Origin: Trueperaceae bacterium
GTDB lineage: Bacteria; Deinococcota; Deinococci; Deinococcales; Trueperaceae
Direction of reading: 5' to 3'
Length of the DNA: 61,769 nucleotides
Assembly: GCA_020354625.1 (NCBI GenBank)
Contig: CP070651.1
Span: forward strand, 2,394,924-2,456,692
Numbering within the stretch: the stretch's first letter is position 1; every line of letters starts with the position of its first letter. The notes under the pieces were generated by a model. The model made no database searches and was not told the origin of the DNA. It saw only the letters and a list, made by a program, of their open reading frames with translations. Shown piece after piece: positions 11,790 through 15,677 of the stretch. The translations under genes were made by a program, and so were the position numbers.

Positions 11790-11992
11790 AGGTTCCTCCG
11801 GAAAGTTCGCAAACGGGTTGGCTATACCGAGCAGAAGAGGCGTTGTGTGGATGGCTAGAGGTATCGATCGCCCTATGTGCCCGGGGGCATGGGTACATAG
11901 AGCACGCTTCGGAGCTCACGATCGCTATCGGGATGAATTAGGTACTCAGCACCATCACCACCTTCGCTCTTTCTCACGAGAGCAGGAGATGA

Positions 11993-12166
11993 AGCTGCTA
12001 GGCAGGTACTCGGGCTCCGTCGTATCCCTCTTTCGCCCACGGTTACGTGGAAGGTGGCGAATCGAGGGCTGCAACGACACCGTTGCGGGACAGCGTCGGT
12101 CTCTCACCGAACTTCCCCTGTCACCCTGGAAAGGTGTCCTGCCCTGGCGGGCAGGCAAAGCAGCTA
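11993..12166 (-). promoter_or_regulatory. Cobalamin (B12) riboswitch
   Basis: On the minus strand the conserved core is clear at about 12124-12080: GACAGGGGAAG, then CGGTGAGAGACCG, then GCTGTCCCGCAACGGT. The 3' conserved block AGCCCGAGTACCTGCC lies at about 12016-12002. Closing stem P1 pairs AGCTGCT (near 12165) with AGCAGCT (near 11999). About 200 nt separate it from btuF, including an imperfect hairpin at 11871-11898 (CTATGTGCCC / GGGTACATAG) that could be part of the expression platform. Binding of B12 is expected to repress the gene. Confidence 0.88.
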
Positions 12167-12184
12167 GCCACACCTGGCTACGCG

Positions 12185-12289: not shown

Positions 12290-13102
12290 TCAGATATCGG
12301 GGTCGGTATCTATGGCATTCTTACCGAGGTCGCGCGCCGGTGGCCCGTCGTAGGTGTGTCTGGTAGGGTCGATGCGGCGCATGGGGCGTTCACGGGTGGT
12401 CTCTTCGACAGCGTGAGCCACCAGGCCTGGGATCCGGGCGATGATGAAAAAGGCGTTGGAGAGCGGTATGGGAAAGCCGAGATCCGTCAGCAGTGCGGCT
12501 ATGGCGCCATCGACATTGATGGGGAGGTGTCGGCCGGTTTGCTGCTCGAGAGCAGACTCCAACGCCCTTGTCACGATCACGGCCTTGCCGGCTACGCCCA
12601 GCTTCTCGGCAAGCTCGAATAGTCGTCGCGCTCGCGGATCGGTTCGGTGGACACGGTGTCCGAAGCCGGGGAGCCGCTGCCCTGTTCTCCGGGCTTCCTT
12701 CACTGTCTCTGTAGCGGCTTGAGTCACGGTCTCGCTTTCGTCGTGAGCGCGCTCTAGGGCGTTTTTGATAAGCTTCATCGAGTTCTCGATGGCACCGCCG
12801 TGGTGGCGGTTGATCGACAGCACGCCGGCAGCGATAGCAGCGTTGAGCGGCGCACCGGTACCTGCGGCTGTCCGAGCTGCTAGCACCGAAGGTGGTGAGG
12901 CACCGTGGTCGACCGATGCCACCAAGATGGCATCTAGCAGCGTCGCGGTCTCCGGAGCGGGCAGTTCCCCCATCATGGCGAGGTAGATAGCTTGGGTGAA
13001 GGTGATCTGACCCATCAGCGCGTCGATGCGGTATCCGCGCAGCCGGATTTCGTTTTTTTTGATCTCGGTGATGGCCGTAGCCCAGGATCGATCCTGATTC
13101 AT
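12290..13102 (-). CDS. Citryl-CoA lyase / short citrate synthase-like protein
   Basis: 270 residues, much shorter than citrate synthase (about 370-430) and the size of citryl-CoA lyase or the C-terminal domain of ATP-citrate lyase. The three catalytic positions of the citrate synthase fold are kept: NRHHGGAIEN (first His), PGFGHRVHRTDPRA (second His) and LPINVDGAIAALL (Asp). A predicted role is C-C cleavage of citryl-CoA or a similar CoA ester to acetyl-CoA plus an oxoacid. ATG 13102 has GAGGTGG upstream. It ends an operon with two CoA-ligase subunits, which fits a two-step cleavage scheme. True substrate unknown. Confidence 0.8.
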   Translation of the reverse strand: MNQDRSWATAITEIKKNEIRLRGYRIDALMGQITFTQAIYLAMMGELPAPETATLLDAILVASVDHGASPPSVLAARTAAGTGAPLNAAIAAGVLSINRHHGGAIENSMKLIKNALERAHDESETVTQAATETVKEARRTGQRLPGFGHRVHRTDPRARRLFELAEKLGVAGKAVIVTRALESALEQQTGRHLPINVDGAIAALLTDLGFPIPLSNAFFIIARIPGLVAHAVEETTRERPMRRIDPTRHTYDGPPARDLGKNAIDTDPDI

Positions 13103-13163
13103 CGTCAACCCACCTCAACCCACCTTAGCCTACTCGGGGTCGCCGTACCCCTTACCTTGGGCC

Positions 13164-14063
13164 TTATCGATCGCTCTGCTGAAGCAGCCCTCCGACGATC
13201 CGTGGGATGTCACCAAGCGAGGGGGCGATGTGGGCGCCCGCCCCACGGAGTCGTGAGATCTTGCTCTGATAGGTGCCGCGTCCGCCTTCGATGATGGCCC
13301 CGGCGTGACTGAAGCGGGTACCGTCTTTGGCCGCCTTCCCCCCGAGGTAGGCGATCAAGGGTTTGGTAAAGCGGCCGGCTTCGATGAGGTCGGCAACCTG
13401 TTCTTCTTGCGAAGTACCGATCTCGCCAAAGAGCACCACCGCTTCGGTTTCGGGATCGGTTTCGAACCGCTCGACCATGCTCGGCAGGGGGAGGCCAACC
13501 AACATGTCGCCACCGACGTGTACCAAGGTGCTGGTGCCGATGCCTTCTTTGGCGAGGTAGTAGGCTGCGCTCGTGGTCATGCCCCCGCTACGGCTGACGA
13601 TGCCGACCGGGCCTGGTAAAAACCACGATTGTGCGCTTGCCACTTGTCCACCGATCATGCCCAACACGGCCCTGCCGGTGTTGAGAACCCCTAAGGTATT
13701 CGGTCCGATGAAGCACGCATTCGAACGATCTGCTGCCGCAATGATCTCCAGAACGTCATAAAGGGGCACGCGATCGGGCACGATCACCAGGAGCCGGATA
13801 CCCGCATCGATCGCTTCCAGGGCAGCGTCCAGAACCAGCGGTGCGGGAACGAAGATGACGCTCGCGTCGAGCGGGCCTGCCTGCTCCCAGGCTTCCCGTA
13901 CGGTATCGAAGACGGGTATGCCCTCGACGACCTGTCCGCCTCTGCCCGGCGTCACACCGGCGACGACGTCGGTGCCGTAGCGCTTCATCAGGCTGGCGCG
14001 GGCGCGGCCTTCACGCCCGGTGATCCCTTGGATGAGGACCCGCGTCGTATCGTCTACCAGCAT
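13164..14063 (-). CDS. ADP-forming CoA ligase, alpha (CoA-binding) subunit
   Basis: Homologue of succinyl-CoA synthetase alpha (SucD) or citryl-CoA synthetase small subunit, 299 residues. It has the Rossmann CoA-binding start (VLIQGITGREG), a central GIVSRSGGMTTSAAYYL segment, HVGGDMLVG and the phosphohistidine motif RFSHAGAI near residue 250, so it should be catalytically able. ATG 14063 starts 9 nt after the upstream stop; GTG 14069 is possible. Its context (ligase beta subunit upstream, citryl-CoA-lyase-like gene downstream) suggests it is not the TCA-cycle SucD but part of a dedicated acyl-CoA forming and cleaving system (inference). Confidence 0.87.
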   Translation of the reverse strand: MLVDDTTRVLIQGITGREGRARASLMKRYGTDVVAGVTPGRGGQVVEGIPVFDTVREAWEQAGPLDASVIFVPAPLVLDAALEAIDAGIRLLVIVPDRVPLYDVLEIIAAADRSNACFIGPNTLGVLNTGRAVLGMIGGQVASAQSWFLPGPVGIVSRSGGMTTSAAYYLAKEGIGTSTLVHVGGDMLVGLPLPSMVERFETDPETEAVVLFGEIGTSQEEQVADLIEAGRFTKPLIAYLGGKAAKDGTRFSHAGAIIEGGRGTYQSKISRLRGAGAHIAPSLGDIPRIVGGLLQQSDR

Positions 14064-14072
14064 GGCCACAGG

Positions 14073-15626
14073 TCAGTCCACACCTTCTGTGGCGCTATAA
14101 GCCTCGAGCCCTTCGATCGGGAGGGTGAGATGCCCACCACCGTTTCCATGCAGGTAGCACTCTACCTCGCAGGCCAGACACTCGGTGCACCCTCCACGCT
14201 TTGCCTCCTCGCGGCTGATGTTGAGCACGGGAACGCCGTTTTCGAGCGATAGGATGTTGGGCGCGCAGGTCTCCAGGCAGATCTTGCTCTGGCAGTCCAG
14301 GCATGTTTTGTGGTCCAAGGTCACGGTTCCGCCGCTTACCGTCTCGAAACGGTAGGGCTTGTCCGCTCGTGGGGTTAGCCGCTTCGACGGGCGTTTTTCA
14401 GAGGGTGTGTAGGAGCCGATCAGCTCACGCAGCCGCAAGGCGCACGCTTCGGCGGGATCGTCTTTGCCGTATCCCTCGAGCGGAGCGGGGAGGTGTTCCG
14501 CAGCCCGCTCGAGGAGCGCCAATGCGTGTTCTTCACCGTTTCCCCCGAGCCGTACCACCGCTGGTACGCTGAGCGGCACCTCTAGAAACGCCTTGATCAG
14601 GCCCCGTGCGGAGTGGTATTGCTCTTGGCTGGCAACGCCGCTGCCGCTGGCAAAATACCCATCGATGCCCGGTTGGCTGAGGATGATGCGTGCGGCGCGA
14701 TACACTTTGCTCGCGGGAGGGTTGCCGCTGGTATCGACGTAGTTGGCTACCTTCAAGCCGGCGGCATGTGCTGCGTCCATGCTGATCATGCCCCCTCCGC
14801 CTCCCGCTCCGTGGAACCCGATTACACCTTCACCAGACCGGAACCCCCGGTCCAGTTGGATGAAGTAGAAGGTGCCCCGGTAGTCGTCTTTTTCGACTTG
14901 CCAGGCGATCTTTTCCAGCTCGGTGGCCGGGTGGTCGAATTCGCGAGCGATTTCGATGCCGAGATCGGTTTGGCGGTACACGGCGTGGTCGTCGATGGTG
15001 ATGCGGCAGTCGGCAGCGATCAACTTTCCATCGGTCGTCAGGATCAATGGGTTGATCTCGGCGGCTCGTGCGTCAACCCTTCGTGCAAGCCGGTAGAGTT
15101 TCGGGAGGACGTCGCCCAATGAGCGCAACAGATCTCCGTGAACACCGGTTTCTCGTGCCAGGTTTCTGGCTTCGAAGGGCCTGAGGCCTAGCTCGATATC
15201 GATTCGGTGGCGTGCGATTCGGTCCGGGCTGCCGGCGGCAACGGTTTCGATGCCGGTCCCCCCGGCCCTGCTGAAGATCGCGACCGGAGCCCGCGCCCGG
15301 TCGTCGACTGTGATCCCGGCGTAGAACTGCTCGGCGATATCCAGCTTCTTTTCGACCAAGACCTGCTCGACCGCGAAGGATCCGATGTTCGTTCCGAGGA
15401 GGGAAGCCGCGGCTTCCTCGGCTTCTCTGGGGTCGTCGGCGAAGCGAATCCCTCCTAAGTCGGCGCGGCCGGTCAGCCACACTTGCGCTTTGACCACTAC
15501 GGCCCCACCGATCTCTTCTGCCAGGGCTCGGGCTTCGGCTGCCGTGCCGGCCAACCCCCCTTTTGGGATGGAGATCCCGACCGTGGTAAGAAGCGCTTTG
15601 CTCCGGTGTTCGTGTAGACGGCTCAT
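14073..15626 (-). CDS. ADP-forming CoA ligase beta subunit fused to an 8-Cys ferredoxin-like domain
   Basis: 517 residues, longer than SucC (about 390). Residues 1 to about 380 are the ATP-grasp ligase subunit: MSRLHEHRSKALLTTVGI start, VVVKAQVWLTGRADLGGI (lysine contacting nucleotide), RAAEINPLIL (metal-binding Glu/Asn) and the C-terminal flavodoxin-like part with GFHGAGGGGG and VRLGGNGEEHALALL. After a basic linker, about residues 430-500 contain CLDCQSKICLETC and CTECLACEVEC, eight cysteines in a bacterial two-[4Fe-4S] ferredoxin pattern. ATG 15626 is preceded by a strong promoter. I know of no usual role for such an iron-sulfur domain in this ligase family. Confidence 0.85.
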   Translation of the reverse strand: MSRLHEHRSKALLTTVGISIPKGGLAGTAAEARALAEEIGGAVVVKAQVWLTGRADLGGIRFADDPREAEEAAASLLGTNIGSFAVEQVLVEKKLDIAEQFYAGITVDDRARAPVAIFSRAGGTGIETVAAGSPDRIARHRIDIELGLRPFEARNLARETGVHGDLLRSLGDVLPKLYRLARRVDARAAEINPLILTTDGKLIAADCRITIDDHAVYRQTDLGIEIAREFDHPATELEKIAWQVEKDDYRGTFYFIQLDRGFRSGEGVIGFHGAGGGGGMISMDAAHAAGLKVANYVDTSGNPPASKVYRAARIILSQPGIDGYFASGSGVASQEQYHSARGLIKAFLEVPLSVPAVVRLGGNGEEHALALLERAAEHLPAPLEGYGKDDPAEACALRLRELIGSYTPSEKRPSKRLTPRADKPYRFETVSGGTVTLDHKTCLDCQSKICLETCAPNILSLENGVPVLNISREEAKRGGCTECLACEVECYLHGNGGGHLTLPIEGLEAYSATEGVD

Positions 15627-15648
15627 CCTAGATGCTCGACCCCGTGCA

Positions 15649-15677
15649 AGCATAGTCTTGCCCCACCGCGCTGTCAA
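15649..15677 (-). promoter_or_regulatory. Strong sigma-70 promoter of the CoA ligase-lyase operon
   Basis: On the minus strand: consensus TTGACA (15677-15672), a 17-nt spacer and TATGCT (15654-15649), about 22 nt before ATG 15626. This is one of the best -35/-10 matches in the window. Confidence 0.75.

Follow-up and report, generated by a model that had tools for sequence, protein, structure and literature searches.

A 61,769-nucleotide stretch of the genome of a Trueperaceae bacterium (Deinococcota; GenBank assembly GCA_020354625.1, contig CP070651.1, positions 2,394,924 to 2,456,692), referred to here as the window, carries three closely spaced minus-strand genes that encode an ATP-grasp acyl-coenzyme A (CoA) ligase subunit (beta) with a C-terminal ferredoxin domain, a CoA-binding ligase subunit (alpha) and a citryl-CoA-lyase-like protein. 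With a probability of roughly 0.6, these proteins would constitute an ATP-dependent ligase and a retro-Claisen lyase that together yield oxaloacetate, starting from citrate or an acid resembling it, with a predicted iron-sulfur (Fe-S) module residing on the ligase. In the first step, beta and alpha would form, via the phosphohistidine, the CoA thioester of a tricarboxylic hydroxy acid, either citrate itself or a closely related compound (for instance, a 2-substituted citrate). Retro-Claisen cleavage of this thioester by the lyase may then release oxaloacetate together with acetyl-CoA or a different acyl-CoA, and the overall reaction would in principle be reversible. Citrate cleavage is the defining reaction of the reductive tricarboxylic acid (TCA) cycle and a source of acetyl-CoA in eukaryotes, and citrate-cleavage enzymes serve as genome markers of carbon fixation. 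A further form that combines an Fe-S module with a modified substrate site could offer a new point of control between redox state and central carbon flux, while such a ligase-lyase family would also cause false calls of citrate-cleaving autotrophy. The features of the window that bear on this proposal are:

14073 to 15626, minus strand: SucC/CcsA-like ATP-grasp acyl-CoA ligase subunit (beta) with C-terminal ferredoxin domain, 517 amino acids, ATP-grasp_2 family, start placed by homologues
14106 to 14330 (approximate limits), minus strand: predicted [4Fe-4S] dicluster ferredoxin domain, C-x2-C-x4-C-x3-C ... C-x2-C-x2-C-x3-C, 8 invariant Cys
14588 to 14731 (approximate limits), minus strand: ligase substrate-site motifs SGNPPASK and GSGVASQEQ, invariant or nearly so in 36 of 36 homologues
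13164 to 14069, minus strand: SucD-like CoA-binding ligase subunit (alpha), 301 amino acids, phosphohistidine His255, catalytic Glu216
12290 to 13108, minus strand: citryl-CoA-lyase-like protein with a short citrate-synthase fold, probable start ATG 13102, 270 amino acids
15649 to 15677, minus strand: sigma-70-like promoter TTGACA-17-TATGCT, 10/12 consensus match

All three open reading frames (ORFs) of the kinds claimed in an earlier, sequence-only reading are present on the minus strand, and their family matches lie far above chance. The beta subunit matches Pfam ATP-grasp_2 (5.4e-49) over the full length of the domain and, among solved structures, SucC (3ufx, 6.6e-72) and citryl-CoA synthetase (6hxq_B, 3.2e-44). 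For alpha, the family matches are CoA_binding (2.8e-22), Ligase_CoA (2.3e-16) and sucCoAalpha (1.3e-84), and the structural ones 2yv2 (4.4e-82) and CcsB (6hxq_A, 2.5e-49). Both ligase subunits fall below the NCBIfam cut-offs for succinyl-CoA synthetase (247.9 vs. 370 for SucC and 284 vs. 353 for SucD), and the curated cut-off of Pfam Citrate_bind (PF16114) was narrowly missed (26.3 vs. 26.8 bits). The lyase matches Citrate_synt (2.6e-41), surpasses the cut-off of the NCBIfam citryl-CoA lyase NF004869 (1.2e-82) and is closely related to the Hydrogenobacter citryl-CoA lyase (PDB 6hxp, 1.3e-57), which bears out the proposal that the window holds the three-component gene set of the two-step ligase and lyase route.

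The catalytic residues of these parts are intact. In alpha, the motifs RFSHAGAI (His255) and GEIG (Glu216) both occur in 33/33 homologues. In the lyase, the residues that we equate with H238, H274, H320, R329, D375, R401 and R421 of citrate synthase, i.e. its catalytic and oxaloacetate-binding positions, are invariant in 28/28 sequences, which agrees with the earlier observation that both His and the Asp are in place. An oxaloacetate-shaped product is therefore likely; the substrate class is predicted from this site, and the chemistry from family membership. Since the division of the reaction of human ATP-citrate lyase (ACLY) between its ligase and citrate-synthase-like modules is debated (PMC10115795), the separate ligase and lyase roles assigned here are to be understood as predicted ones.

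The phylogenetic spread of the ferredoxin fusion is patchy. It was detected in 42 genomes, namely 2 of 111 Deinococcota, 27 of 154 members of one Chloroflexota order and 13 of 147 WOR-3; the relatives that share the architecture of the window copy belong to Chloroflexota (Anaerolineae/Aggregatilineales), WOR-3 and one other Deinococcota genome. A thin sample of 400 Chloroflexota contained it in the centre genome only, and none was found in the plasmid collection. The window copy, located in a single-contig genome of 4.29 Mb (G000), is nearest to a Chloroflexota clade with unfused alpha and lyase (68% identity to the G549 ligase), which suggests horizontal transfer.

The lyase accompanies the fused ligase in 39 of the 41 genomes tested (2/2 Deinococcota, 26/27 Chloroflexota, 11/12 WOR-3; G689 is left out of this count). 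It went undetected only in G593 and G786, which are fragmented metagenome-assembled genomes (MAGs) with the relevant genes on short contigs. Among ten genomes of the same order that lack the fusion, nine also lack the lyase, and the sequence of the tenth (G523) stops inside alpha at a contig edge. This co-occurrence at the genome level (39/41 vs. 0/9 evaluable non-fusion genomes) strongly indicates that the three parts function together. The expected link between fusion and lyase thus largely holds: in seven loci (G548, G549, G550, G681, G687, G688 and G690) the beta gene lies apart from the lyase, but the lyase is found elsewhere in those genomes, usually with alpha.

Moreover, alpha and lyase form one chain of ~570 amino acids in 16 Chloroflexota loci of a single clade, while they are separate in the window, in G003, in WOR-3 and in another Chloroflexota clade. 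The fused sequences cluster in the lyase tree (support 91/94) and alpha is nearest to SucD, and the fusion therefore looks independent of AclA; it would be an independent repeat of the ligase-lyase fusion that made this protein. AclB, CcsA and the Hydrogenobacter lyase sit on very long branches in the trees, and deep placement of the family was not used. The suggestion that the operon follows the domain order of eukaryotic ACLY is correct for the gene order in the window, but an all-in-one fusion was not seen, only the SucD-lyase fusions of the one Chloroflexota clade.

These observations bear on the possibility that the ligase genes are paralogues of succinyl-CoA synthetase that simply lie beside an unrelated lyase gene. 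Of the solved structures, SucC/SucD do give the best scores for both ligase subunits, and the beta gene is unlinked from the lyase in the seven loci mentioned. However, co-occurrence and the alpha-lyase gene fusion already largely refute this explanation, the succinate-binding loop is not kept in the ligase, and the genome of the window contains a further gene resembling SucC; chance proximity is thus very improbable. Taken together, homology, residue invariance, co-occurrence and gene fusion make a good case for the predicted ligase and lyase chemistry.

The extra eight-cysteine motif on the ligase, noticed earlier, is real. Its cysteines (residues 459, 462, 467, 471, 497, 500, 503 and 507 in the numbering of an over-long ORF, see below) form two four-Cys cluster motifs that are kept without exception in the 36 sequences compared (36/36), which come from Deinococcota, Chloroflexota and WOR-3; the lack of cysteine conservation named earlier as a refuting condition is thus not seen. 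The models Fer4_6, Fer4_10, Fer4_2 and Fer4 all score above their Pfam cut-offs in the domain of a WOR-3 homologue (L126), while the window copy remains below cut-off. With the Cys domain as query, solved structures gave no significant sequence match, and AlphaFold models of the whole fused subunit and of the isolated Cys domain (seven sequences each) were of low confidence in this domain. Judged by its cysteine pattern and by the Pfam matches of L126, it is a genuine [4Fe-4S]-type dicluster ferredoxin domain under strong constraint. A ninth cysteine ahead of the ferredoxin motifs (Cys412, same numbering) is likewise invariant in 36/36 sequences and is possibly a cluster ligand or redox partner.

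As for its role, the domain might transfer electrons and couple ligation or cleavage to ferredoxin-dependent chemistry. The dicluster layout, in which both sets of cysteines are invariant, would suit such a function, but none of the clades keeps an oxidoreductase or a ferredoxin partner beside these genes, and the assigned reaction is without a redox step, which makes electron transfer quite improbable. Because no oxidoreductase is consistently linked, the most likely role of the Fe-S domain on the ligase is a structural or redox-sensing one, in preference to electron transfer. For the same reason, the earlier idea that an Fe-S centre links the reaction to redox finds no support. A more elaborate proposal is a redox-gated lyase acting on a non-citrate substrate, in which the [4Fe-4S] domain would sense or use the redox state and thereby set whether, and in which direction, a citrate-like acid is cleaved or formed. 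If true, this would tie the Fe-S state directly to acetyl-CoA/oxaloacetate flux, yet we regard it as unlikely.

The identity of the substrate is less clear-cut than the chemistry. The simplest assumption is citrate or a near relative. In favour of this are the lyase, which is best matched by citryl-CoA lyases, and the GNPP motif of beta, which is common to the family and to the citryl-CoA synthetase CcsA, where SucC has GGGA instead. Several points, however, weigh against citrate cleavage. First, the ligase pocket is altered. The loop GSGVASQEQ is the family's own and replaces GGITRAD of SucC and ANFT/ANNT of AclB/CcsA. In published structures of human ACLY, citrate is contacted by N346, T348 and R379. 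At the equivalent positions, the family has A, Q and L/I/V: where AclB and CcsA keep A-N-x-T and RR, its members show A-S-Q and R-[LIV], and N-x-T occurs in 0/36 sequences. Citrate may therefore not be the substrate, and by these residues the pocket matches neither the usual succinate site nor the usual citrate site. With these contacts replaced in all members, citrate cleavage as originally stated is not supported, and citrate itself is about an even bet. Second, ordinary citrate synthase is also present in most of the fused-ligase genomes, so that an enzyme cleaving citrate there would be at risk of futile cycling. Third, the gene neighbourhoods in Chloroflexota suggest catabolism of something other than citrate. 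In the clade with fused alpha and lyase, the order is LacI regulator, ADP-ribosylglycohydrolase-fold protein, sugar-type ABC transporter, second ADP-ribosylglycohydrolase-fold protein, ligase-ferredoxin, alpha-lyase and esterase. The cluster of LacI, ADP-ribosylglycohydrolase-fold and transporter genes recurs beside the ligase-lyase genes in the Chloroflexota loci L050, L051 and L079-L096.

Hence, the same complex may have a natural substrate other than citrate, for example, a catabolic hydroxy acid such as a 2-alkylcitrate, hydroxycitrate or a sugar-derived acid, which would be converted to oxaloacetate or another 2-oxo acid and an acyl-CoA. Besides the unique invariant loop, the lost A-N-x-T and RR contacts and the conserved catabolic neighbourhood in Chloroflexota, this is favoured by the G003 copy, which has a thiamine pyrophosphate (TPP) enzyme, an Ldh_2 dehydrogenase and a glyoxylate-reductase-like dehydrogenase directly upstream and a uronate isomerase nearby, as well as by related proteobacterial lyases in varied CoA-transferase catabolic clusters. 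Yet the lyase retains the full citrate-synthase-type oxaloacetate site, no single compound suits all neighbourhoods, and one WOR-3 genome (G686) couples the ligase-lyase genes with aconitase-type genes; a non-citrate substrate thus stays somewhat below an even chance. Near the alpha-lyase fusion of G041 (L048, 391-6889), genes for a NanE-like epimerase, a GlcNAc-kinase-like protein, a sugar ABC transporter and a DegT-type aminotransferase form a cluster that, assigned by eye, looks sialic-acid- or amino-sugar-like. On plasmids, citryl-CoA lyase homologues (L121, L122, L124) adjoin CaiB-type CoA transferases in varied catabolic clusters that include a tricarboxylate transporter, a TPP enzyme and a 3-dehydroquinate dehydratase, and these clusters probably represent several uncharacterised cleavage pathways. 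No one pathway fits all neighbourhoods.

The aconitase-type neighbours in G686 count for a citrate-type pathway. Here, the gene order is ligase-ferredoxin, alpha, lyase, HD-domain protein, large and small subunits of aconitase/homoaconitase type and a dehydrogenase of isocitrate/homoisocitrate type. This pathway evidence comes from a single MAG, which has its own operon of citrate synthase, aconitase and isocitrate dehydrogenase, and is weakened accordingly. That TCA operon (L162, 1683-6917) comprises citrate synthase, a LeuC/LeuD-type aconitase, isocitrate dehydrogenase and an Ldh_2-like protein that was assigned by eye as malate dehydrogenase. A LeuA-type origin was also considered for the dehydratase and dehydrogenase beside the ligase-lyase genes, but no LeuA/homocitrate-synthase-type (HMGL-type) enzyme was detected in the G686 genome. 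HD-domain genes lie beside or near the lyase in eight loci of WOR-3 and one Chloroflexota clade; the proteins (~180 amino acids; L109, L110, L111, L138, L140-L143) are 41-51% identical to the G686 copy, and a fourth component of the system is possible.

Conceivably, the system could also run in the synthetic direction, i.e. acyl-CoA, oxaloacetate, ADP and Pi would give citrate (or a citrate-like acid), CoA and ATP, as an energy-conserving alternative to citrate synthase with an Fe-S redox switch. Both half reactions are reversible, the G686 operon contains a dehydratase and a dehydrogenase leading toward a 2-oxo acid, and G690, G711, G712 and G550, all incomplete MAGs, possibly have no other citrate synthase. 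Given the normal citrate synthase in most genomes and the uptake-type cluster in Chloroflexota, however, we consider synthesis rather doubtful, and cleavage to oxaloacetate by ligase and lyase remains the preferred assignment.

In the window, a single promoter precedes beta, alpha and lyase, with 3 bases between the beta stop and the alpha start and a gap of ~55 bases between alpha and lyase. Homologues of beta start with M[AS]RLHE, which corresponds to the ATG at 15626. The ORF from TTG 15677, given as the ligase start in the sequence-only reading, is over-long and begins 17 codons too far upstream: this TTG falls within the -35 box, and the homologues start at the ATG. The -35 box TTGACA (15677-15672) is separated by a 17-nucleotide spacer from TATGCT (15654-15649), and the promoter ends 22 nucleotides upstream of the corrected start codon. 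The promoter sequence described earlier as strong is thus present and its position agrees with the corrected start, but taken alone the match is weak evidence (10/12, compared with a mean of 0.8 promoter-like sites of at least 9/12 expected in the stretch from shuffles). Downstream, a cobalamin riboswitch (Rfam RF00174, 33.6 bits; 11984-12175, minus strand) lies between the lyase gene and a gene for a BtuF-like periplasmic binding protein (11789-10911), which behind the riboswitch forms an ordinary B12-uptake unit. On account of the intervening riboswitch, an operon link to this gene was rejected, and the operon therefore most likely consists of three genes.

Searches of open-licence papers yielded no description of a ligase-ferredoxin fusion, and the passages located in a 2025 survey of WOR-3 metabolism mention citrate synthase but not this system (PMC12542636). 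The ligase-ferredoxin-lyase set can hence be regarded as a variant of the ATP-citrate-lyase kind of enzyme whose fusion is new to the literature searched. Its closest counterpart in layout is CcsA/CcsB plus Ccl of Hydrogenobacter (6hxq, 6hxp), with the same three components, the same split into beta, alpha and a ~260-residue lyase, a close lyase (1e-57) and a common GNPP motif of the ligases. In contrast, the window family has the fused [4Fe-4S] dicluster domain and lacks the citrate-contacting N, T and R, and the window ligase subunits score higher to SucC/SucD. With AclB and AclA of Chlorobium, the Chloroflexota members share the arrangement of beta plus an alpha-lyase fusion and the predicted reaction class, yet their fusion is apparently independent (closest to SucD, with unfused sister clades). 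Unlike both AclB/AclA and ACLY, the family carries a ferredoxin domain and a different citrate-site loop, and alpha and lyase are separate in the window, whereas ACLY is one chain. SucCD provides the closest solved structures by score and shares the ligase fold, the ATP-grasp and the phosphohistidine, but has FGGITRAD and GGGA in place of GSGVASQEQ and GNPP, and the near-universal lyase partner and the Fe-S domain set the window family apart. Finally, the proteobacterial citryl-CoA lyases (PRK06224) next to CaiB-type CoA transferases belong to the same lyase family (34-44% identity among the plasmid matches listed). There, CoA comes from the CoA transferase instead of an ATP-dependent ligase, and no ferredoxin fusion was seen in these systems.

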